Assembly (NCBI GenBank): GCA_009712185.1
Contig: WASQ01000100.1
Location: 105,529-165,506, forward strand
Origin: Telmatospirillum sp.
Lineage (GTDB): Bacteria; Pseudomonadota; Alphaproteobacteria; Rhodospirillales; Magnetospirillaceae
DNA: 59,978 nucleotides
Reading direction: 5' to 3'
Below, piece by piece: positions 30,498 to 41,666 of the stretch. Under the pieces are notes generated by a model that was not told where the DNA came from, made no database searches, and saw nothing but the letters and a program-made list of their open reading frames with translations. Position 1 is the first letter of the stretch, and every line of letters begins with the position of its first letter. The translations under genes were made by a program, and so were the position numbers.

Positions 30498-31649
30498 TCA
30501 GGCGGTTCGGACGACTGCCGTCAGGGCGGACAGGAAGGCGTCGACATCGCCATCATTATTGTAAAGTGCCAGACTGACCCGGACGACCCCGGTTACCCCC
30601 AGACAGGTCAGGGCCGCCTCCGCACGGAAGGACCCGCTGCCGACGGCAATGCCCTTTTCGCCCAGCGCCCGGCAGACTCCGTCGGGGTCGCGTCCGGGTA
30701 CCGTGAACGACACCAGCGGGATCCGGCGCTCGACATCGACGGGTCCGATAACGGCGATCTCCGGCATCGTCCTCAAGGCGTCCAGGATCCGGACCACGAG
30801 TCGCCTCTGGTTGGCGGCGATGGCCGGGCGGTCCAGGCCGTCGAGCCAGGAAAGCGCGGTCGCCAGTCCGACCGCCTGTGTCTGCGGCGGGGCGCCGGTT
30901 TCAAGAAGAGCCTGCGGATCCGGCAGGGTCCGGCGGTTTGCCCACAGCACTCCGATTCCCGTTGGCCCGAAGACCTTCTGGCCGGAAAAACAGTAGCAGT
31001 CGATCCCCAGTTTACGGACGTCCACGGCGCCATGCGGCGGCATCTGCGCCCCATCGACCAGGATCGTCGCCCCGACGGCGTGGGCGGCATCGGCCAGCCG
31101 GCGGACCGGCGACAGGGCGCCGGTGATGTTGGAGGCATGTGTCACGGCGACCACGCGGCAACGCGGGCCGATCGCCGAGGACAGCCGGTCTTCGTCGATG
31201 CGCCCCGCCGCATCCAGCGGCAGCGTCCGGACGACCAGGTCCCTCTCCGCCGCCGCTTCCAGCCAGGGAACCCGGTTGCTCTGATGTTCCAGTGCCGACA
31301 ATACGATTTCGTCGCCGGCCTCGAGCGGCGCGGTCAGAAAGGCGGCGGCCCGGGCGATGGCCGTCGTGCAATCGGCCGCGAAGGCGATTCCGGCGGGATC
31401 ATCCGCATTCAGGAACCGCGCCACCTTGGCCCGCGCGGCCTGAAAGGCATGGGCGGCCCTCGCCGCGAAAGGGTGGCGCGTATGATGGACGCTGGCCCGG
31501 GCGGTCATCTCATGCGCCGCCATGGCGTCGATCACGTCGCGCGGCATCTGGGCCACCGACGCATTGTCCAGGTAATGGAGGCTTCTCCCATCCGGGCCGG
31601 CGGCCAGGATCGGGAACTGACGGCGTAGCGGAACGGGATCGAAGCTCAT
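30498..31649 (-). CDS. Class V aminotransferase, SufS-like but lacking the catalytic Cys
   Basis: This 383-residue PLP enzyme has the cysteine-desulfurase fold: SALEHQSNRVPW, the PLP Asp in ILVDGAQ (D199) and the PLP Lys K225 in CFSGQKVFGPTGIGVLW. Two expected parts are missing. Where SufS has the persulfide Cys (GHHC), this protein reads GSGSFR, so R342 takes the Cys position. The stretch between FGPTGIG and the E-x-G-x-P motif is about 20 residues shorter than in SufS. It therefore belongs to the SufS-like group without active Cys, whose reaction is not established. XdhC is the next gene on the same strand, 437 bp upstream. A sulfur-transfer link is possible but unproven. Confidence 0.8.
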   Translation of the reverse strand: MSFDPVPLRRQFPILAAGPDGRSLHYLDNASVAQMPRDVIDAMAAHEMTARASVHHTRHPFAARAAHAFQAARAKVARFLNADDPAGIAFAADCTTAIARAAAFLTAPLEAGDEIVLSALEHQSNRVPWLEAAAERDLVVRTLPLDAAGRIDEDRLSSAIGPRCRVVAVTHASNITGALSPVRRLADAAHAVGATILVDGAQMPPHGAVDVRKLGIDCYCFSGQKVFGPTGIGVLWANRRTLPDPQALLETGAPPQTQAVGLATALSWLDGLDRPAIAANQRRLVVRILDALRTMPEIAVIGPVDVERRIPLVSFTVPGRDPDGVCRALGEKGIAVGSGSFRAEAALTCLGVTGVVRVSLALYNNDGDVDAFLSALTAVVRTA

Positions 31650-32086
31650 GGTCGTCTCCCGGTGTGGGGCCGGACGGCATCGGGATTGTCGGGATCCGAA
31701 AGGATGCGGGGGATCGGGGCGGGGGGGCGGCGCTCCGACGCCTCTCTTCCGGGCCGGACTGTCGTCGAAAATCCCTCTGCCAAGCAGCTCCGGATCGCCC
31801 CCTGCCCCTCACGGACGGTTACACGGGACAAGTGTACCCGTAATCGTGGCGGAAGGCCTCTTCGATATGCCGCTATTCCTCCTTCTACCGGCCGGTAAAC
31901 ACGACCCCTGAGCCGACCGGCCGGAGGGATCGACGATCCGGTGGGGGGAGCGGTCCGGTCCGTCCGGAGTGCGATTTTGGGCCTGCGTTCTGTCTTGGGG
32001 CACTCCCAATCCGTCCGCAACCTGCCCGGCCAGCCCGGCGGCGGGGAGGAGAGGTGGACGTTCCGACGGCGGCGCGGTTCCGCCGG
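31650..32086. other. Intergenic stretch with an imperfect operator-like repeat
   Basis: No gene is supported in these 437 bp. At 31815-31841 ACGGTTACAC and GTGTACCCGT form a 10-bp inverted repeat with one mismatch and a 7-nt spacer, about 165 bp before the SufS-like start. Its symmetry suggests a protein-binding site. No matching regulator gene is adjacent. Confidence 0.4.
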
Positions 32087-33121
32087 TTATCGCGGAACGC
32101 GCGGGCGGCCGTGGCGGGTGGCGATGACCTCCGCCAGGATCGACACGGCGATCTCGGCGGGCAGGCGTCCACCCAGATCGAGGCCGATCGGGCCGGCGAT
32201 CCGCGCCAGGTCCGTCTCGGAGAACCCGTCCGCGCGCAAGCGGTCCCGTCGGTGCGCGTGGGTCCGGCTGCTGCCCAGCGCTCCCACATAGAAGGCCGGC
32301 GACCGGAGCGCCGCCCCCAGGGCCGGATCGTCGATTTTGGGGTCATGGGTCACGGCAATGACGGCGGTCTGGGGGCCGGGCGGCATCTCCGCCATGACGG
32401 TATCGGGCCAGTCTGCCGTCAGGGTGACATCCGGAAAGCGGCTGTCTGTCGCGAAGGCGCGGCGCGGGTCGATCACCGTGACCTCGAACCCGGCCAGCCG
32501 TGCCATGGGCGCCAGGATCTGGGTGATATGAACCGCCCCCACGATGATCATCGACCAGGCCGGGGTGTAGGACCGCACGAAGATCGGAGTGGTGCCGGCC
32601 GCGATTTCGCCGCTCAATCCCTGGGACATCATGTCCCGGACCCGCGCCAGGATTTCGGCCGGCAAGGGCAGATCACCGCCGGCCCCGGTTCCATCGGCGG
32701 GGACCAGGATTCGCCGGCCGCTGGTCAGATCCTCGCCCAGGGCGGCGGATCCGCCGTCGGCGCGAATGGCCGACAGGCGCGCGAACAGGGCGGCCATGCC
32801 GGCCATGGGGGACAGATGGACACGGATAGCCCCGCCGCAGGCCAGACCGACCTGCCAGTCATCGGCGTCGCTGACCCCGAACTCCAGAATCCTCGGGCGG
32901 CGGTCCCGGATCACGTCGACCGCCTGGCGGACGACCGCACCTTCGACGCATCCGCCGGAGACGGATCCGACGAAATCGCCGTTCGAATCGATGACCAGAT
33001 GGCTTCCGACCGGCCGCGGCGCCGATCCCCAGCAGGAAACGACCGTGGCAAGGGCAAGTTCGCGTCCCTGGCTTTGCCAGGCGGACGCCAGGGCCAGGAC
33101 CCGATCGTCATCATCGGCCAT
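32087..33121 (-). CDS. XdhC/CoxI-family protein (Moco maturation)
   Basis: XdhC-family proteins bind molybdenum cofactor, protect it during sulfuration, and deliver it to xanthine-dehydrogenase-type enzymes. The 344-residue product (ATG 33121, GGGGAG 8 nt before) has the XdhC_CoxI domain (SAPRPVGSHLVID, GSVSGGCVEGAVV) and the C-terminal Rossmann domain (MIIVGAVHITQILAPMARLA, FYVGALGSSRTHAHRR). No molybdoenzyme gene lies in the window. In Rhodobacter XdhC works with a NifS-type protein, which makes the SufS-like gene nearby of interest. Confidence 0.88.
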   Translation of the reverse strand: MADDDDRVLALASAWQSQGRELALATVVSCWGSAPRPVGSHLVIDSNGDFVGSVSGGCVEGAVVRQAVDVIRDRRPRILEFGVSDADDWQVGLACGGAIRVHLSPMAGMAALFARLSAIRADGGSAALGEDLTSGRRILVPADGTGAGGDLPLPAEILARVRDMMSQGLSGEIAAGTTPIFVRSYTPAWSMIIVGAVHITQILAPMARLAGFEVTVIDPRRAFATDSRFPDVTLTADWPDTVMAEMPPGPQTAVIAVTHDPKIDDPALGAALRSPAFYVGALGSSRTHAHRRDRLRADGFSETDLARIAGPIGLDLGGRLPAEIAVSILAEVIATRHGRPRVPR

Positions 33122-33245: not shown

Positions 33246-36233
33246 TTAAAGAAGTCCGGGGCGTCCGGCCTTCCAGCGATCGTATTCCGTCTGCAACAGG
33301 GCGACGTGCTCGAACTCCTCGGCCGCCAGCTCGCGGTAAAGCTGCCGCTCGGCCGATCCTTCCGCCGCCTCGGCGCTGCGTCCGGTGAAGAAGGCGACGG
33401 CCCGTTTTTCGAGACCGATGGCGATGGTGAACAGCGTCGCGGGATCCTCCGGCCGGCCGCCGACGCCGGAGTAAAGGGCAGCGACATCGAGCCGGATGTC
33501 ATCGGCCGGGGCGGGGATATCGAGATGATAGCGCCGGGACAGGGTCGCCATATGCTCCTCCTCCATGCCGGCGAAACGGCCGAACAGGTCGGCGAGCTCC
33601 GGATCGCCGGTTTCCTTCGCGGCCCGGCGATAGAAGGACAGCCCTCCCAATTCGATCTCGAAGGCGGTTCTCACCGCGGCCACGGAGGCATCGGTCCCGG
33701 GAGCCGCGAGGGTGATTTCCACCAGCCGGCCGCCACAATGCGGACAGGCGCCGTAGGGGAAGGCGAATCCCTCGCTGACCTTGGCGCACTCGCTGCACCG
33801 CCAGGCCACGGGCTGATCGGCGCAGCAGACATAGCTTTCATCGCCGTCCAGCGGACGATGGCATTTCGGGCAGAGAGGCGCCCGGCCATCCTCGCCGGCG
33901 GCGCCCGCGAGGGCCGGCAGGCTGCCGGGGACAAAGGCCGAGACATCCTCCTCGGTCAGCGGCCAGGTCCGGCCGCCACTCTGCAGATAGGCGGCGATCG
34001 ACCGGGCGGCGCGGCGTCCCGCCCCCATGGCCAGGATGACGGTGGCGCCGCCCGTGACGATGTCGCCGCCGGCAAAGACGCCCGGAAGGTTGGTGGCCTG
34101 GGTCCGCTCGTCGGCGACGATGTAGCCCCATTTGTTCAGCGCAAGTCCCGGCGTCGATTGCCCGACGACCGGATTGGCGTTCGTCCCGAGCGCGTAGATC
34201 ACCGTATCGCAGTCCAGATCGACGAATTCATCGACCGGAACGGGGCGTCGGCGGCCACGCTCGTCCGGTTCGCCCAGTTCCATTTTCTGAACACGCATGC
34301 CGGTCACGTCGCCCTGGCCGTCGACCTTGATTTCGACCGGTCCATGCAGGAAGTAGAATTCAATCCCCTCTTCCTTGGCGTGCCGCAACTCTTCGATCCG
34401 GGCCGGCGCCGCGGCCGCGGACCGCCGGTAGACGCAGCGGACGGTCGGGGCGCCCAGGCGGTTCGCCACCCTGAGACAGTCCATGGCCGTATTGCCGGCG
34501 CCGATGACCACCACGCTCTTCCCAAGGCTGATCGGCGTGTCCCGGTAGGGGAATTTGTCGCCCCCCATCAGATTGACCCGCGTCAGGAACTCGTTGGCGG
34601 AATAGACGCGTCCCGCGAACTCGCCCGGAATTCCCAGGAACGTCGGCGCGCCGGCTCCGGCGGCCACGAAGACCGCGTCAAATCCCATGTCGGCCTGAAG
34701 CTGTGGAACGGTGAAGGTCTTGCCAATGACCTTGTTGGTTTCGAAGACCACGCCCTGATCCTTGAGACGCTGCACCTCGCGCTCGATGATATCGCGGGGA
34801 AGACGGAACGCCGGGATTCCGTACCTCAGGACACCGCCCACCACATGCAGGGCCTCGAACACCGTGACGTCGGCGCCGAAGCGGACGAGATCGGCGGCGG
34901 CGGCCAGTCCTCCCGGGCCCGACCCGACGACGGCCACCCGGCCCAGGCGGCCGGCGAAGGATGGCGGCAGGGCCTTGGGGGGACGGGCATTGTCGCCGAT
35001 GAAGCGTTCCAGCCGCCCGATGGCCACCGGCTCCATCTTGCGGCCGATGATGCATTGGGATTCGCACTGGGATTCCTGCGGACACACCCGTCCGCAGATC
35101 GACGGGAACACGCTGGTCTCGTAGATCGCCTCCAGCGCTTTGTCGAAGTCGCGGACCAGCAAATGGCGGATGAACCGGGGAATGTCGATGCCGACCGGAC
35201 AACCCGAGATACAGGTTGGCTTGTGGCACTGGATGCAGCGCTCCGCCTCAAGAAGCGCCGTCTCCATGGAATAGCCGAGATTGACCTCCTTGAAGTTCGA
35301 GGCCCGCTCATGGGCGTCGCGTTCCGGCATCGGATGCTGGGTCGGGGTCAGTTCGGACATCTTCTTGTAGGTGCGTTTGCCGTCCTGGATCAGTTTCTTT
35401 TCCAGGTTGCAGACATGGGCGAAATCCTCGTTGGCCCGTGCCTCCTCGGACCGGAACCGTTTCTGGCGGGCTTCCAGTTCCTTGAAGTCGACCTGATGAC
35501 CATCGAAATCCGGGCCGTCGACGCAGGCGAATTTCACCTCGCCGCCAACGGTCACGCGGCAGGATCCGCACATGCCGGTGCCGTCGACCATGATGGTATT
35601 GAGCGACACCATGGTTTTAACACCGAAGGGGCGTGTCACCTCGACGCAGGCTCTCATCATCGGCAACGGGCCGATGGCGACGACCAGATCGGGCCGATCC
35701 GTCTCCAGGACCTCGCGCAGGGCGTCGGTGACAAATCCGGGGCGGCCGTAGCTGCCATCGTCGGTGCAGAGCAGCAGGCGATCGCTTTCGGCGCGAAACC
35801 GGTCCTCCCAGAACACCAGATCCCGGTTGCGGAATCCCATGATGCCGGTGGTCCGGTTGCCGGCGGCGCGGAAGGCCCGCAACTGGGGGAAGACCGGGGC
35901 CACGCCCAGGCCGCCGCCCACCATCACCACATGGCCGACCTTGGCGATATGCTGCGGCAACCCCAACGGCCCCACGAAGTCGTCAAAGAAATCGCCTTCC
36001 TGGTAGTTGTCACGCATTTCCCGGGTCGTCTTTCCCAGGGCCTGCACGACGATGGTGACGATTCCCCGTTCGCGGTCGTAGTCGGCGACCGTCAGGGGGA
36101 TGCGTTCGCCGCCGTCATAAAGACGGATCATGACAAAGTGCCCGGGCTCCGCTGAACGGGCGACGTCGGGGGCGTGGATGTCCCAAAGGAACGAGGTCTC
36201 GGAGAACTGTTCGCGGCGCAGGATCTGGTACAT
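33246..36233 (-). CDS. Fusion of NfnA-NfnB-type oxidoreductase with rubredoxin/rubrerythrin tail
   Basis: This 995-residue protein joins modules normally encoded separately. Residues 1-285 resemble NfnA/SudB (ferredoxin-NADP reductase type) with FAD-binding RIPLTVADYD, the NAD region GGGLGVAPVFPQLRA and a [2Fe-2S] site with C222, C225 and C237. Residues 295-760 resemble NfnB/GltD, with eight Cys for two [4Fe-4S] clusters (C333, C336, C341, C345, C380, C384, C390, C394), FAD motif GSGPGG and NADP motif GAGNTAMD. Residues 788-833 form Cys-pair Zn/Fe ribbons (C788/791, C803/804, C813/816, C830/833). Residues 850-995 are ferritin-like with EEEH (891-894) and EEFEH (972-976) plus E859/E861 and E942. 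Probable role: NAD(P)H/ferredoxin transhydrogenation and peroxide reduction. GAGAG precedes the ATG. Confidence 0.88.
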   Translation of the reverse strand: MYQILRREQFSETSFLWDIHAPDVARSAEPGHFVMIRLYDGGERIPLTVADYDRERGIVTIVVQALGKTTREMRDNYQEGDFFDDFVGPLGLPQHIAKVGHVVMVGGGLGVAPVFPQLRAFRAAGNRTTGIMGFRNRDLVFWEDRFRAESDRLLLCTDDGSYGRPGFVTDALREVLETDRPDLVVAIGPLPMMRACVEVTRPFGVKTMVSLNTIMVDGTGMCGSCRVTVGGEVKFACVDGPDFDGHQVDFKELEARQKRFRSEEARANEDFAHVCNLEKKLIQDGKRTYKKMSELTPTQHPMPERDAHERASNFKEVNLGYSMETALLEAERCIQCHKPTCISGCPVGIDIPRFIRHLLVRDFDKALEAIYETSVFPSICGRVCPQESQCESQCIIGRKMEPVAIGRLERFIGDNARPPKALPPSFAGRLGRVAVVGSGPGGLAAAADLVRFGADVTVFEALHVVGGVLRYGIPAFRLPRDIIEREVQRLKDQGVVFETNKVIGKTFTVPQLQADMGFDAVFVAAGAGAPTFLGIPGEFAGRVYSANEFLTRVNLMGGDKFPYRDTPISLGKSVVVIGAGNTAMDCLRVANRLGAPTVRCVYRRSAAAAPARIEELRHAKEEGIEFYFLHGPVEIKVDGQGDVTGMRVQKMELGEPDERGRRRPVPVDEFVDLDCDTVIYALGTNANPVVGQSTPGLALNKWGYIVADERTQATNLPGVFAGGDIVTGGATVILAMGAGRRAARSIAAYLQSGGRTWPLTEEDVSAFVPGSLPALAGAAGEDGRAPLCPKCHRPLDGDESYVCCADQPVAWRCSECAKVSEGFAFPYGACPHCGGRLVEITLAAPGTDASVAAVRTAFEIELGGLSFYRRAAKETGDPELADLFGRFAGMEEEHMATLSRRYHLDIPAPADDIRLDVAALYSGVGGRPEDPATLFTIAIGLEKRAVAFFTGRSAEAAEGSAERQLYRELAAEEFEHVALLQTEYDRWKAGRPGLL

Positions 36234-36550: not shown

Positions 36551-38647
36551 TCAGAAACTGCGGCTGATACCGGCGAAATATCCCCGCCGTTCCCCAAACT
36601 GCGGGGCTCCGACACCGATGCCCGTCCCGGACCGCAGTTGATATTTCGCATCGGCCACATTGACGATGCTGACCCGGACGTCGACCCCCCGGTCATCGGG
36701 AATGCCGAAGTGATGGGTCACGCCGAGGTTGAGCGTGGCATAAGGGGCGATATGCCCGGTGTTGGCGAAATCTTTCCGGAGGCCGCTGCCGAACACGCTG
36801 TCCGCGCTGACCCGGGTGGCGTCGTCGACCCGCCAGGTCAGACCGCCGGAGGCGGTGTAAAGCTGGTCGTGATCAAGATGAACCCAATGGCTCGCGATAT
36901 AGGCGAGCTCTGCGGGATCGCTGAAGCTTTCCTGGCTGGAAATGATCTGGCGGCCCACCGCCCGGGATACCGCGACATTGAGGTAGGCGTCGATTTTGTC
37001 GCCGGTATAGGACAGCGTGGTCTCGGCCCCCATGATCCGGCCCTGGGCGTAGTTGAAGGGCGTATAGATCAAGGCCTGTCCGAACTGGCCCTCGTCCAGC
37101 ATGTCATGGACCCGCTTGTAATAGCCGTCCAGCCCGATCTGCAGCCGGGAGGTGATCTGCTGCGTCACGCCGGCATCGAAATTGTGCGACCGTTCCGACT
37201 TGACCGGGGCGTTCTGCAGAATGGAGGGGGCCCCGGGCGTGTTGAGGAATTTTCCGATCGAGGTCTGCGTCACCAGTTCCAGGGGGGGCGGCGTGAAATA
37301 GCGGGCATAGCCGGCATGGAGCGTGGTGCCGGAGGCGACCTTGTAGACCACGCCGATCCGCGGACTCCACTGGGTCTCGTTGACATAGGCGTTCACCGCG
37401 TCGAAACGGGTGCCGTAATTGACCGTCAGCGCGTCCGACAGCAGCCATTCGTCCTGGAGATAAAGGCCATACATCATGGCGTTCCTGGCCTGATCGTCGA
37501 CGACGGTCACCGGAGCGGAAAGCGCCGCTCCGTTGGCGTCAAGGGGGAAGACCGACGCGCTGTTGTTGGCGACCGCGCGTTCATGCTGGGTGGAAAAACC
37601 GGCCCGCAGGACATGGCTGTCGCCGATCTGATAGCTTCCGTCGCCTTGCAACCCGGTGGCGAAATTGTCGCGCTGAACGTTCGAGGCGACACCGTTGTAT
37701 TGCAGATCGGCGACCGGGTCGGGGCTGAAATGCAGGCGCGTGTAGCGCAGATAAGGTGCCAGTTGGAAATTGAGATTGTCGCGCACACCCTGCCAGGCGA
37801 CGGTCGCATATTGCGTCTGTTCGCGCTGACGCTCATTGATCGATCCGGACGGCACGGGCGTTGTTCCGGACAGGGCGTAGGACGGGCTCTGACCCGGATT
37901 ATTGGGGATCTGGAAAAGGCTGTTGGCAGATCCCAGTACGACGTTCAGCCGGTTGTCCGGATTGAAGATGTAGGAAAAATAGCCGAACGCCTTGCCCTGG
38001 TCGGTGTGGTCATGCTGCGGGGTCAATTGCGAGGTCGGCGGCTCGATTCCCTGATCGCTGCCCTTGTAGCGTCCGCTGACGAAATAGCTGGCCGGTCCGG
38101 CACTGCCGGCGTAGCTCAGGGACGTTTCGACGGTTCCCCGGCTGCCGCCGTAAAGGTCGACGGTGCCGCCATCCTCGACAGAGCCGCTCCTGGTCCGGAT
38201 GTCGACCACGCCGGCGGTCCGGTAGCCATATTGCGCCGGCAGCGTTCCGGTCAGAAGCTGGACCCTGTCGACGACGCGGGCGTCCATAACCTGTCCGAAA
38301 CCGCTGATCCCCTCCGGCAGCAGAATACCGTTCAGGCGATATTGAAGGTTGGCATGTTCGCCCCGGACATGCACCTGACCGAACGAATCCTGTGCGACGC
38401 CGGGGGCCTGTTCCAGGACCTTGTCGAAAGAGGTGTTGGTTCCCTGGGGCAGTTCGGCGATGGCCTGACTGTCGATCGTATAGGCGCTGGTGCCTGTACT
38501 GGGAGACAGGCTGTTGCGCGCGTCATCCAACCGTTTCGCAATGATATTGACCGTCTGGGTCGTGTCCGGAGGAGCCCCGCTGTCGGCCAGCGCCGGAGGG
38601 GCAAAAACGGCCAGCAGGGCGAGGGACGTCAAAGGTTTCGCAGCCAT
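36551..38647 (-). CDS. TonB-dependent receptor, probably for zinc or a metallophore
   Basis: This 698-residue outer-membrane receptor has a signal peptide (LTSLALLAVFAPPALA), a plug domain (about 35-155; SFGQVHVRGEHANLQYRLNG, VDRVQLLTGTLPAQYG) and a barrel ending in aromatic GISRSF. A His/Asp-rich stretch (LTPQHDHTDQ, near residue 210) would sit on the outer side and could bind metal. It follows znuA on the same strand after 94 bp, downstream of a Zur-like box, so zinc is the best-supported substrate class by context. No Zur box was found directly in front of it. Its closest functional analogue would be ZnuD, but homology cannot be shown here. Confidence 0.85.
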   Translation of the reverse strand: MAAKPLTSLALLAVFAPPALADSGAPPDTTQTVNIIAKRLDDARNSLSPSTGTSAYTIDSQAIAELPQGTNTSFDKVLEQAPGVAQDSFGQVHVRGEHANLQYRLNGILLPEGISGFGQVMDARVVDRVQLLTGTLPAQYGYRTAGVVDIRTRSGSVEDGGTVDLYGGSRGTVETSLSYAGSAGPASYFVSGRYKGSDQGIEPPTSQLTPQHDHTDQGKAFGYFSYIFNPDNRLNVVLGSANSLFQIPNNPGQSPSYALSGTTPVPSGSINERQREQTQYATVAWQGVRDNLNFQLAPYLRYTRLHFSPDPVADLQYNGVASNVQRDNFATGLQGDGSYQIGDSHVLRAGFSTQHERAVANNSASVFPLDANGAALSAPVTVVDDQARNAMMYGLYLQDEWLLSDALTVNYGTRFDAVNAYVNETQWSPRIGVVYKVASGTTLHAGYARYFTPPPLELVTQTSIGKFLNTPGAPSILQNAPVKSERSHNFDAGVTQQITSRLQIGLDGYYKRVHDMLDEGQFGQALIYTPFNYAQGRIMGAETTLSYTGDKIDAYLNVAVSRAVGRQIISSQESFSDPAELAYIASHWVHLDHDQLYTASGGLTWRVDDATRVSADSVFGSGLRKDFANTGHIAPYATLNLGVTHHFGIPDDRGVDVRVSIVNVADAKYQLRSGTGIGVGAPQFGERRGYFAGISRSF

Positions 38648-38741
38648 AGCGCGGTGAATCCTTGCTAATATTACATCTAAAAAGAGTGTTTTCAGGCGTG
38701 CCGATGCCGACTTCCCCGATGGCGGGGCGGCGGTCGGGCTG

Positions 38742-39707
38742 TCAGTTCCGCTGCATGGCGGCGACCATGATGGGAACGTTGTAGCGGAACATCTTGAGAT
38801 AGCCGTCCGCCGGACCGCCGGCAGGCGACAGAGTGTCGGAATAAAGCGGACCGCCGACGACGGCTCCGGTTTCGCGGGCGATCTGCGCGATCAGGCGGGG
38901 ATCGGCCATCGATTCGATGAACAGCGCCTTGATGCCCTCGGCGCGGATCTGGCGGATCAGCTTTCCGAGGCCGGCGGGTGTCGCTTCGCCTTCCGTGCTG
39001 AGGCCGACCGGAGCCTCAAAGGTGATGCCATAGGCGGATCCGAAATAGCCGAAGGAATCGTGGGAGGTGATGATCCGCCTCTTCTCCTGGGGAATAGCGG
39101 CCATCTGGTCGCGGACCCAGGCATCAAGGGACGCTGTCTCCCCATCCATCCGTCGTGCCTCGCGGGCATAGTCGGCGGCGTGGGCAGGATCGGCTTTGGA
39201 CAGCGCATCCGCGATATTGGCGAAATAGATGCGCCCGTTGCGGAGGCTCTGCCACGCGTGCGGATCGACCATGCCGGGACCGGTCGGGCGATCTCCGACC
39301 CGGGCCGGAACGGTTTGCGTCGCCACCTCATGGCTGGCTACCAGGATCGGTCCCTTGTATCCCGAGACGGCGATCAGCCGGTCGATCCATCCTTCAAGTC
39401 CCAGGCCGTTGACGACCACCAGGTCGGCGGCGGCGATGGCTTTGGCATCGCTTGGCGTCGGCTGGTAGACATGCGCGTCGCCCCCGGGGGCAACCAGCGG
39501 GGTCACCGTCACCCGGTCGCCTCCCACTTCCCGGACCATGTCGGCCAGGATGCTGAAGCTGGCAATCACTTTCAGCGGCGCGGCCGCGGCGGGGGGGGGC
39601 AACACCAGCCCCAGTCCGAGGCTCAGTCCCAGCACCGGAGCCCGAGCCCCCGCCCGTGCCCGCTGTCGTATCCGTGCCCATGCCCGCGTCAGCAGCCTTC
39701 CGATCAT
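38742..39707 (-). CDS. znuA: Zinc/manganese ABC transporter periplasmic binding protein
   Basis: This 321-residue cluster A-I metal-binding protein delivers zinc (or manganese) to ZnuBC. It has an Arg-rich N-region, a hydrophobic signal segment (LGLSLGLGLVLPPPAAAA) and the mature start PLKVIASFSILADMV. Metal ligands are visible in GDAHVYQPTPSD (His), VDPHAWQ (His) and FIESMADPR (Glu), and the expected Asp is in the C-terminal lobe. The long His-rich loop of many ZnuA proteins is absent. GGAGGG precedes the ATG. It is divergent from znuCB and downstream of a Zur-like box at 39740-39762. Confidence 0.92.
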   Translation of the reverse strand: MIGRLLTRAWARIRQRARAGARAPVLGLSLGLGLVLPPPAAAAPLKVIASFSILADMVREVGGDRVTVTPLVAPGGDAHVYQPTPSDAKAIAAADLVVVNGLGLEGWIDRLIAVSGYKGPILVASHEVATQTVPARVGDRPTGPGMVDPHAWQSLRNGRIYFANIADALSKADPAHAADYAREARRMDGETASLDAWVRDQMAAIPQEKRRIITSHDSFGYFGSAYGITFEAPVGLSTEGEATPAGLGKLIRQIRAEGIKALFIESMADPRLIAQIARETGAVVGGPLYSDTLSPAGGPADGYLKMFRYNVPIMVAAMQRN

Positions 39708-39739
39708 GATCCCGCCCTCCTTCCGTCGGGATGTAAAGT

Positions 39740-39762
39740 GTTATGTTATAATGTTGCATTTC
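39740..39762 (-). promoter_or_regulatory. Zur-like box of znuA
   Basis: On the minus strand this 23-mer starts GAAATG and contains TTATAACAT, matching the right half and outer left of the gammaproteobacterial Zur consensus (GAAATGTTATA-N-TATAACATTTC). It ends 32 nt before the znuA start. Confidence 0.75.
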
Positions 39763-39870
39763 GCAAGGACGAATTCGGGTAACTGTCGCCCCCCTCCATC
39801 CCCATGCCGTTTTTGCGCGGTCAACCCGTTGCCTTGTCCTTATAAGGCATGGACAGGGCGGATCGATCAT

Positions 39871-39893
39871 GATCTGTTATATTATAACGTCAT
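39871..39893 (+). promoter_or_regulatory. Zur-like box of the znuCB operon
   Basis: The core GTTATATTATAAC (39876-39888) is a perfect 13-bp palindrome identical to the Zur consensus core GTTATA-N-TATAAC. It ends 32 nt before the small ORF start at 39926, the same distance as the other box from znuA. Confidence 0.85.
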
Positions 39894-39925
39894 CAATCGC
39901 AGGACAGAGGCCAAGGGTGTCCCAT

Positions 39926-40048
39926 ATGGATTGGGAAGAGGGATTTTCGCCCCTCAGTTGGGGGGTCGGGCAGCGGCTGGTCGTGGTGGCTGCGGCGATC
40001 GGGGGGCTTTGGGCGGCGGTCGGATGGGCCCTGGACTGGTGGCTATGA
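39926..40048 (+). CDS. 40-residue single-helix membrane peptide coupled to znuC
   Basis: This short frame begins with MDWEEGFSPLSWGVGQRL, continues through a hydrophobic helix (about 18-36, Val/Ala/Gly-rich) and ends with ALDWWL. It contains five or more Trp. The TGA overlaps the znuC ATG (TATGA), which strongly suggests translational coupling. It is the first frame after the Zur-like box and its codons look like the neighbours. No strong ribosome-binding site is seen, only AAGGGTG about 8 nt upstream. I do not recognise a family. It may be a small accessory subunit of the transporter or a leader peptide that tunes znuC translation. Confidence 0.6.
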   Translation: MDWEEGFSPLSWGVGQRLVVVAAAIGGLWAAVGWALDWWL

Positions 40049-40803
40049 CGACGGCGGACTATCTGGTCGAACTGGGCGATCTGACCGTGACCTATGACCG
40101 CCATCCGGCGCTGCATCACCTGACCGGCGGTTTTGCCCGGGGCAGCCTGACGGCGGTGGTCGGTCCGAATGGTGCCGGAAAGAGCACGCTGATCAAGGCG
40201 ATCGCGGGGCTGGTGCGTCCGGCCGGGGGGCATGTCGCCCTTCATGGCCTTTCCTCACGGGACATCGCCTATATGCCGCAACTGGCGGCAATCGACGACA
40301 GCTTTCCCATCTCGGTTCTCGATGCCACCCTGCTTGGGCATTGGCGGCGGGTCGGCGCTTTCGGAACCATCACCCGGGCCATGAAGGCTGCCGCCCGGGA
40401 GGCGCTGGCCACGGTCGGTCTCGAAGGATTCGAATCCCGGTCCTTCGGGTCGATGAGCGCCGGCCAGCGTCAGCGGGCGTTGTTCGCCCGCGTCCTGGTG
40501 GCCGACAGTCCGCTGATCCTGCTGGACGAACCCTTCAGCGCGGTCGATGCGCGGACCACCGCCGATCTCATTGGTCTGATCGGCCTCTGGCATGACGAGG
40601 GGCGGACGGTCGTCGCGGTCCTGCACGACTTCGGGCAGGTCCGGCGGTATTTTCCCCAGGCCCTGCTGCTGGCGCGGCGGAAAGTGGCCTGGGGGGAGAC
40701 GGCCGATGTCCTTACCGACGGCAATCTTCTGGCCGCGCGCGCGATGAGCGAGGCCTGGGACGCGGAGGCTCCGGTCTGCGAGGATGAGAGGGCGGCAGGA
40801 TGA
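40045..40803 (+). CDS. znuC: Zinc/manganese ABC transporter ATP-binding protein
   Basis: This 252-residue ATPase powers metal uptake through ZnuB. It has Walker A (GPNGAGKST), a Q-loop (YMPQLAAID), the ABC signature FGSMSAGQRQRALFA (slightly altered from LSGGQ), Walker B (LILLDEPF) and the switch His (VLHDFGQV). The ATG at 40045 overlaps the upstream small ORF and the stop overlaps znuB (ATGA). Frame extension upstream to 39538 crosses the promoter region and is not coding. Confidence 0.95.
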   Translation: MTTADYLVELGDLTVTYDRHPALHHLTGGFARGSLTAVVGPNGAGKSTLIKAIAGLVRPAGGHVALHGLSSRDIAYMPQLAAIDDSFPISVLDATLLGHWRRVGAFGTITRAMKAAAREALATVGLEGFESRSFGSMSAGQRQRALFARVLVADSPLILLDEPFSAVDARTTADLIGLIGLWHDEGRTVVAVLHDFGQVRRYFPQALLLARRKVAWGETADVLTDGNLLAARAMSEAWDAEAPVCEDERAAG

Positions 40804-41666
40804 TCGATCTTCTGATCGGCCCCTTCGCCGATTTCGGCTTTATGCGCCGCGCTCTGGTCGCCTGTTTTTCCCTGTCGCTGGGATCGGGCGCGATCGGGGT
40901 GTTCCTGGTCCTGCGCCGGATGAGTCTGATCGGCGACACCATGGCTCATTCGGTCCTGCCCGGGGCCGCGGTCGGCTTCATGGTGGCCGGGTTGTCGCTT
41001 CCCGCCATGAGCCTTGGCGGCTTCGTGGCCGGCCTTCTGGTCGCCCTGGCCTCCGGGCTGGTCAGCCGCTATACGCCGCTGAAGGAGGATGCCAGCTTCG
41101 CCTCCTTCTTCATGATCTCACTCGCCGTCGGGGTCCTGCTGGTCTCGACGCACGGCAGTTCCGTCGACCTGATGCATGTCCTGTTCGGATCGATCCTGGC
41201 GGTTGACGACACCTCGCTCATGCTGATGGCGGGGGTGGCCACCGTCACGCTGCTGCTGTTCGCGGTCATCTTCCGCGGTCTGGTGGCGGAATGCTTTGAT
41301 CCCACCTATTTGCGGGCGGTCCGCGACCAGGGCGGGGTTTACCACACGGTCTTTCTGATTCTGGTCGTGCTCAACATGGTCAGTGGCTTTCAGGCACTGG
41401 GAACACTGATGGCCGTCGGCCTGATGATGCTGCCGGCAACGGCCGCGCGGTTCTGGGTGGCCGAAGTGTGGTCCCTGATCGCTCTGGCGACCGGAATTGC
41501 CTTCCTGTCCGGCTATGCCGGACTGGTGCTGTCCTACCAGTACAATCTTCCGTCCGGTCCCGCGATCGTTCTGGTGGCCGGCGCGATCTATATGCTGTCG
41601 GTGGCGGCCGGTCCCCGTGGCGGCATCCTGGCGGGGCTTGTCCGGCGGCGTCACCTTCGATCGTGA
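40800..41666 (+). CDS. znuB: Zinc/manganese ABC transporter permease
   Basis: This 288-residue ABC-3 family permease has about eight membrane helices. Family segments include LVLRRMSLIGDTMAHSVLPG, ASFFMISLAVGVLLVS, and LGTLMAVGLMMLPATAARFW. It overlaps znuC by 4 nt and ends the operon. Substrate assignment to zinc follows from the Zur-like boxes; the family also includes manganese transporters. Confidence 0.94.
   Translation: MIDLLIGPFADFGFMRRALVACFSLSLGSGAIGVFLVLRRMSLIGDTMAHSVLPGAAVGFMVAGLSLPAMSLGGFVAGLLVALASGLVSRYTPLKEDASFASFFMISLAVGVLLVSTHGSSVDLMHVLFGSILAVDDTSLMLMAGVATVTLLLFAVIFRGLVAECFDPTYLRAVRDQGGVYHTVFLILVVLNMVSGFQALGTLMAVGLMMLPATAARFWVAEVWSLIALATGIAFLSGYAGLVLSYQYNLPSGPAIVLVAGAIYMLSVAAGPRGGILAGLVRRRHLRS

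Follow-up and report, generated by a model that had tools for sequence, protein, structure and literature searches.

What use does a bacterium make of an Nfn-type oxidoreductase that continues, in the same polypeptide, into a ferritin-like domain? The question is raised by a gene in a 59,978-nucleotide stretch of Telmatospirillum sp. DNA (Alphaproteobacteria, Magnetospirillaceae; assembly GCA_009712185.1, contig WASQ01000100.1, positions 105,529 to 165,506), hereinafter the window. The gene (33246..36233, minus strand, from the ATG at 36233 to the stop at 33246) is a stop-free open reading frame (ORF) of 995 residues; the long antisense frame over it on the plus strand is the usual shadow in high-GC DNA. 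It encodes NfnA- and NfnB-like parts in a single chain, followed by two four-cysteine sites and a ferritin-like domain (together, the module). A sequence-only reading of the window had picked out this chain, without giving the strand, and the protein that it saw is real, conserved and selectively maintained. The interpretation that we tentatively favor, with a little less than even confidence, is that the Nfn core serves a ferredoxin pool feeding low-potential enzymes, and that the module is an optional device that would reduce O2 or peroxide with electrons from Nfn.

The Nfn core and the C-terminal module

The NfnA-like part (residues 1-277, consisting of an FAD/NAD domain and a [2Fe-2S] domain; 35403..36233, minus strand, like all other features of this gene) aligns over residues 1-264 with the small subunit S of Pyrococcus NfnI (PfNfnI, 5jca_S; 6e-96), matches the corresponding Thermotoga maritima subunit (4ylf_A; 2.5e-78) and scores 389.6 bits, above the cut-off, with NF004862. 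The NfnB-like part (residues 300-757, with two [4Fe-4S] clusters, FAD and an NADPH domain; 33963..35336) aligns over residues 295-751 with the large subunit L of Pyrococcus NfnI (5jca_L; 7e-136) and also matches 4ylf_B (5e-144) and TIGR01316 (533 bits, above the cut-off). Pfam models recognized in the complete protein are DHODB_Fe-S_bind (residues 212-249), Fer4_20 (310-417) and Pyr_redox_2 (432-738).

The predicted cofactor sites of the core are intact. The [2Fe-2S] motif DGTGMCGSCR...CV (residues 217-237; 35523..35585), with one Asp and three Cys (D217, C222, C225 and C237), agrees over residues 217-238 with the motif as given in the relevant passages of PMC6405883. The two [4Fe-4S] clusters would be bound by C333, C336, C341, C345, C384, C390, C394 and E409 (residues 333-409; 35007..35237); the motifs (residues 332-410) follow the pattern given in the same passages except for the last spacing, which is x11 instead of x13, as it also is in the aligned 5jca_L. 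Conservation was assessed in 41 related rows and 8 outgroup rows, chosen from 73 Nfn rows. The [2Fe-2S] ligands are kept in 41/41 relatives, and altogether 11 of the 12 ligand positions are identical in all 41 whereas C333 is present in 40, with a gap in the remaining one; the ligands of both cluster types are also kept in 8/8 outgroup rows. Given these intact motifs and conserved ligands, the bifurcating machinery appears complete on paper, and the three cluster sets noticed in the sequence-only reading are indeed in place. Not every Nfn homolog bifurcates, as stated in PMC9973337.

Downstream of the core, a variable linker (residues 758-785; 33879..33962), in the region where the first gene ends in relatives with split genes, leads into the module. 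The first four-Cys site, C788xxC791...C803C804 (33822..33872), is zinc-ribbon-like by eye. The second, W-x-C813xxC816...C830-P-x-C833 (33723..33803), is rubredoxin-like, with a weak alignment to the rubredoxin end of rubrerythrin 1ryt (residues 143-177, E 0.042) and a weak Zn_ribbon_8 match (17.0 bits, below the 34.4 cut-off). These two sites are the paired Cys ribbons of the sequence-only reading, and all eight Cys are identical in 31/31 non-redundant C-domains, to which 53 matched segments were collapsed. The same 31/31 identity holds for the putative di-iron ligands of the ferritin-like four-helix domain (residues 848-988; 33270..33692), namely, E861, E891, H894, E942, E973 and H976, and hence for both ExxH motifs (E891-H894 and E973-H976).

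The resemblances of this domain are mostly to the ferritin superfamily. The Pfam Rubrerythrin model PF02915 (gathering score 22.8) gives 20.0 bits with the whole protein, under the threshold, and 25.8 bits with the isolated domain, over it. An AlphaFold model of the C-domain, built from 16 sequences, has a mean pLDDT of 80 and four helices of 25-28 residues; of 628 Foldseek matches, the 50 that were listed are headed by the helical copper protein CopM and otherwise consist mostly of members of the ferritin superfamily, including 2oh3 (COG1633 type) and bacterioferritins (TM-scores of 0.65-0.67 to the target and about 0.5 to the query), with none named a rubrerythrin. When the C-domain is aligned with three rubrerythrins from its own and related genomes (L185, L186 and L188), helices A, B and D agree, so that the four-helix bundle, the Glu on helix A and the ExxH motifs on helices B and D are all found. 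Helix C, which aligns with a two-residue offset, carries a single Glu (E942, 31/31), with Ala (27/31) or Thr (4/31) three residues on, whereas the aligned rubrerythrins have an ExxE pair in this helix. The second Glu of that pair is, we assume, the seventh ligand of rubrerythrins, and the six-ligand set of the C-domain would presumably be of the bacterioferritin type. Features that liken the module to rubrerythrins, reverse rubrerythrins, 2oh3 and bacterioferritins are the four-helix bundle, the ExxH motifs of helices B and D, the Glu and Tyr of helix A and the rubredoxin-like Cys site; the module differs from rubrerythrins in the lone helix-C Glu and in having two four-Cys sites, each of which precedes the bundle. 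Because helix C carries one Glu rather than the ExxE pair, the name rubrerythrin is best taken to denote resemblance, not membership, and identification of the domain as a true rubrerythrin was not accepted. The ferritin-like di-iron-type domain perceived in the sequence-only reading accordingly stands as a bundle with both ExxH motifs but not as a rubrerythrin; the same genome has a gene for a classical rubrerythrin at another locus (L188).

The chain is not an artifact of the joining of two genes by a sequencing or assembly error, a possibility that the sequence-only reading itself had raised and that is rejected here. The same fused frame is open in three genomes of the same genus (G438, G439 and G440), and dN is well below dS, the ratio of nonsynonymous to synonymous rates between the window gene and the three congeneric copies being about 0.09-0.13 in the Nfn part (residues 1-757) and 0.25-0.37 in the module (residues 786-995). 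Purifying selection thus acts on both, more loosely on the module, whose dN is 2.2-3.0 times that of the Nfn part. A phage or virus origin was rejected as well: a scan of viral contigs with the C-domain produced 7 pattern matches, and no relative was among them.

The three-part architecture is already known to an annotation model, NF009413 (PRK12775), which matches end to end (residues 1-995 on model positions 1-1006 of 1006). The protein is similar to the family in length and domain order; all three parts are present, and the score is 1892.2 bits (1891.9 bits in a six-frame search), 3 bits below the curated cut-off of 1895; in a scan of the class, 0/289 genomes passed this cut-off and the window gene was the sole full-length match listed. 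The NCBIfam name of the model, 'putative trifunctional 2-polyprenylphenol hydroxylase/glutamate synthase subunit beta/ferritin domain-containing protein', is annotation only, and a literature search, with subscription papers mostly outside its coverage, found no description of the function of this architecture.

Fused, split and module-less relatives

What is new here is that, in relatives, the module can also be encoded on its own, by the gene that immediately follows Nfn, and that fusion or fission, as well as loss, has occurred repeatedly. The genome of the window contains, besides the one full-length copy, eight partial matches at other places. Matches at 1e-180, with or without the module, are present in 32/317 genomes of the order, and 3/299 genomes have a match in a scan of the phylum. 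A survey of the best 80 loci identified 15, counted by named contigs, that encode all three parts, either fused or in adjacent genes; by record titles, these come from Alpha- and Betaproteobacteria, 'Deltaproteobacteria'/Myxococcota, Acidobacteria and Actinobacteria, mostly from metagenome bins. The sequence-only reading had described NfnA and NfnB as normally separate subunits, which is too strong: the two share one stop-free frame in 46 of these 80 loci, including 32 of the 65 module-less ones, and a single-chain form, 'pattern B' of the Clostridium autoethanogenum type, is described in PMC6405883 and, in the passages concerned, resembles the window core in the NfnA-NfnB order, the single chain and the cofactor motifs. 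The alphaproteobacterial fusion of 'pattern C' in the same paper has the NfnA domains at the C-terminus, unlike the window protein.

In Burkholderiales, in Acidobacteria and in some families of the window's order, the module has an ORF of its own; the distance from the Nfn stop to its start, taken at seven loci, is 0-101 bases. A tree built from 49 rows of the Nfn part (midpoint root, long outgroup branches) groups the 41 rows with or near the module in a single 100/100 clade. Of these rows, 18 are fused, 13 split and 10 module-less, with Nfn and the module fused or neighboring in 31/41; the minimum number of changes imposed by the starred branches is 5 for 'fused', 3 for 'split' and 4 for 'none'. 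The clade count comprises neither the truncated rows of G396 (L155), G360 (L055/L175) and G398 (L174) nor the more distant G326 and G327, and it includes one partial row, L102, scored as split. Nine of the 10 module-less genomes, each searched whole, contain no module homolog at 1e-5, among them the two in which only a short stretch lies beside the gene (L171, 0.8 kb to the contig end, and L050, 1.5 kb); the other, L068, was checked within its 8 kb of downstream sequence. The repeated joining and splitting argues that Nfn and the module work together, a Rosetta-stone pattern that makes functional coupling likely, and the repeated loss argues that the module is conditional.

Two relatives deserve a separate mention. 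In Rubrivivax sp. SCN 71-131 (L067:10348-12474), the module directly behind the Nfn gene continues in frame into a domain resembling benzoate or 3-hydroxybenzoate-CoA ligases (NF053567, 301 bits, and TIGR02262, 246 bits, both below the cut-off). A 0.9 Mb genome of the window's genus (L170, G170:C14:5137-7455) has an open Nfn frame with 75% identity, no module and no nifH match.

Gene neighborhoods and co-occurrence with nitrogenase

The neighborhoods of the 32 Nfn-bearing genomes of the order were read as far as the contig or the fetched stretch reached (at most 1.5 kb per side in G483). In 8/32 (G354, G355, G356, G357, G359, G361, G377 and G497), the Nfn gene is near nif genes, called by NifS over the cut-off in L145, by NifV over and NifW just under it in L146, and by shared sequence clusters in the other loci; nifH is on the same contig, 9.7-15.2 kb away, in six of these eight. 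An rnf operon is divergent from the fused gene in two loci (L140 of G597, with RnfA and RnfC over the cut-off, and L144 of G435, by sequence cluster). In three Betaproteobacteria, pyruvate:ferredoxin oxidoreductase (PFOR) adjoins the split-form gene (L063, scanned; L062 and L064, by cluster), and in at least two of them it is joined by a PyrD-like protein and ferredoxin (L063, scanned; L064, by cluster). In G398 (L174), dsrA and dsrB come right after a single-chain Nfn gene that is truncated by the contig end; they are followed by genes that look like dsrEFHCMK by eye and by one for an NAD(P)-binding DsrL-like protein.

At the genome level, nifH is present in 23/32 Nfn-bearing genomes as against 65/285 other genomes of the order (Fisher p 5e-8), and in 11/16 as against 24/99 genera (p 8e-4), both p values being inflated by shared ancestry. 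By form, nifH is found in 10/13 genomes with the fused gene, 5/5 with the split one and 7/9 without the module. BcrD, a component of benzoyl-CoA reductase, is over the cut-off in 10/33 Nfn-bearing genomes, a count given with no control rate. Either marker is present in 26/33, and neither in G170, G326, G398, G481, G537, G538 and G597. An exclusive role in nitrogen fixation was rejected, considering the nine genomes of 32 without nifH, the lack of any fused nif-adjacent copy, and the dsr (G398) and BcrD contexts.

In the window's own genome, nifH and nifD (L172) and PFOR (L173), all over the cut-off, are located on other contigs. Directly downstream of the Nfn-module gene is an XdhC/CoxI-family gene (32087..33115, minus strand; PF13478 and PF02625), an order kept in L137 and L139, and then a gene for a class-V aminotransferase of the SufS-type cysteine desulfurase family (30498..31649, minus strand; PF00266). 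In L137, from the same genus, the order is Nfn-module, XdhC, MocA-like cytidylyltransferase, SufS-type desulfurase and SufU-like protein, and the desulfurase, of the same sequence cluster as that of the window, scores 474.3 with TIGR01979 (cut-off 475.1). In the window, the interval from XdhC to the desulfurase (31650-32086) shows no counterpart of the MocA-like gene of L137 and L139. Just upstream of the Nfn-module gene (36551-41666), there are genes for a TonB-dependent receptor, ZnuA and an ABC-3 permease, resembling a zinc-type uptake system; L137 likewise has ZnuA and TonB-receptor relatives. Elsewhere in the same genome (L189:3-1983, contig C58), a gene for a COG1633-like ferritin-like protein is directly behind that for the alpha subunit of a 2-oxoacid:ferredoxin oxidoreductase, along with a weak PorB-like match; this is another di-iron-type protein beside a ferredoxin-reducing enzyme.

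Function of the Nfn-module protein

In the interpretation favored here, the single-chain NAD(H)/NADP(H)/ferredoxin oxidoreductase would bifurcate, exchange electrons with the low-potential ferredoxin pool and, family-wide, most likely make or poise reduced ferredoxin for oxygen-sensitive low-potential enzymes. These clients would be nitrogenase in many relatives and benzoyl-CoA reductase in others; for the window gene, nitrogenase is, among the possible ferredoxin clients, the one that we infer. The nif link rests on co-occurrence and on relatives with a split or missing module. The module, if loaded with iron, most likely draws electrons from the Nfn core through the rubredoxin-like site to the di-iron site, which most likely reduces O2 and/or H2O2 to water, so that Nfn and its ferredoxin clients would be guarded upon oxygen leakage.

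A precedent for the ferredoxin side is AadN of Rhodopseudomonas palustris, a single-chain Nfn that is required for growth on benzoate and whose C38W variant supplies nitrogenase when fixC is mutated (PMC9973337). In the accessible parts of that paper, AadN shares with the window protein the NfnA-NfnB order in one chain, alphaproteobacterial origin and the link to ferredoxin, and is described without a di-iron module. The scanned window neighbors are not aromatic-degradation genes. The survey of Nfn homologs in PMC6405883, as far as its main text goes, distinguishes patterns A-D, mentions a di-iron module for none of them and calls the fused kinds uncharacterized; the strings 'rubr' and 'ferritin' have 0 occurrences in the main text of that paper, and 'rubrerythrin' and 'ferritin' have 0 in the text of PMC9973337 that was accessible. 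As for protection, RbrA of Anabaena is cited in the pertinent passage of PMC6624747 as a peroxidase that protects nitrogenase, and the title cited there calls it FNR-dependent.

Several observations weigh against the favored interpretation. The genus neighbors are XdhC, the MocA-like transferase, the cysteine desulfurase and the SufU-like protein, not nif. The nif-adjacent copies consist of 5 split and 3 module-less ones, with fused 0/8, and our confidence is lowered because no nif-adjacent copy is fused. The module is dispensable, with 10/41 relatives keeping the Nfn part alone, and 7/9 tested module-less genomes still have nifH. The absence of nifH in 9/32 Nfn-bearing genomes, together with 65 nifH genomes that have no Nfn gene, implies that nitrogen fixation does not require the latter and is not its exclusive setting, and the related genomes in these counts are not independent. 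On the structural side, no solved structure matched the C-domain at E < 0.001 in the sequence search or among the 50 Foldseek matches listed, the full-length AlphaFold model is too poor for domain placement (pLDDT 57.6, pTM 0.38), and the metals of the C-domain could be Zn or absent.

The sequence-only reading had linked Nfn to a peroxide-reducing center, and this proposed link is partly supported: the complete core and the conserved di-iron-type domain with its adjacent rubredoxin-like site, in one chain or in neighboring genes, make functional coupling likely. Its simpler form, in which the protein is dedicated to peroxide defense, with Nfn mainly passing electrons of NAD(P)H or reduced ferredoxin to the di-iron site and ferredoxin supply being secondary, appears unlikely. 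The NAD(P)H and ferredoxin sites are intact, the di-iron-type ligands are conserved, no fused copies were seen beside nif genes, and there are relevant precedents. One of these is a flavodiiron fusion of class F, which we take to have a different di-iron fold and a simple reductase. According to the abstract of PMC9364112, this fusion (FDP-rubredoxin-NROR) is a self-sufficient oxidase, which resembles the window protein in combining an NADH-oxidizing flavoprotein, rubredoxin and a di-iron site in one chain and differs in that ferredoxin or bifurcation is not mentioned there. The other is Rub-Bfu, predicted, in the accessible part of PMC9304861, to be a bifurcating flavoprotein with H2O2 as a third substrate; it is similar in pairing a bifurcating NADH/ferredoxin flavoprotein with rubrerythrin, whereas its core is the FMN-containing BfuBC and its rubrerythrin is a neighbor gene, as opposed to an Nfn core with both fused and split forms. 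Against dedicated defense stand the second helix-C Glu that is missing, the separate classical rubrerythrin of the same genome, the survival of Nfn without the module in 10/41 relatives, nine of them without a homolog genome-wide, and several neighborhoods of low-potential metabolism that depends on ferredoxin (no search was directed at peroxide-stress genes as such).

Similar doubt, if slightly greater, attaches to the idea that the module is regulatory or structural, that is, a combination of zinc ribbons and a ferritin-like sensor or docking domain that tunes or localizes Nfn with no turnover of O2 or peroxide. The zinc-ribbon look of the first Cys site, the weak Zn_ribbon_8 match of the second, the faster evolution of the module and its dispensability are in line with this idea; the six invariant di-iron-type ligands, which would be needless in a purely structural bundle, are not. 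Still less probable is recruitment of the protein, in the window's genus, to maturation of molybdenum enzymes or their redox supply, unrelated to nitrogen fixation. This possibility draws on the downstream order kept in L137, L139 and partly L138, all from the same genus, on the family matches of the neighbors (the MocA- and SufU-like ones below the cut-off) and on a MoaA-like gene, identified by eye, a few kb from the Nfn gene in L163 of the same family. The XdhC, MocA-like and SufU-like clusters occur in no surveyed locus outside the genus, the window itself has no MocA-like gene between XdhC and the desulfurase, and we know of no biochemical link between the Nfn-module protein and maturation of molybdenum enzymes. 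The least probable variant, a long shot, is that O2 or H2O2 is an alternative high-potential acceptor that replaces NAD+ and drives ferredoxin reduction at the bifurcating FAD. NADPH would then be oxidized at this FAD, with one electron passing to ferredoxin and the other reaching O2 or H2O2 through the [2Fe-2S]/FAD branch and the rubredoxin-like site. Should this variant hold, microaerobic bacteria would gain low-potential electrons and oxygen removal in one step.

If the favored interpretation, ferredoxin supply with an optional O2- or peroxide-reducing module, is correct, the family would present a bifurcating core wired to an O2- or peroxide-reducing center in settings where ferredoxin has to stay reduced near oxygen. 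It would offer a single, expressible polypeptide for a test of peroxide as the third bifurcation substrate, as proposed for Rub-Bfu in the accessible part of PMC9304861, and the natural fused, split and module-less relatives are a ready-made control set. The Nfn-module protein would then also be a candidate for the delivery of low-potential electrons to nitrogenase in diazotrophic Proteobacteria that cope with oxygen.

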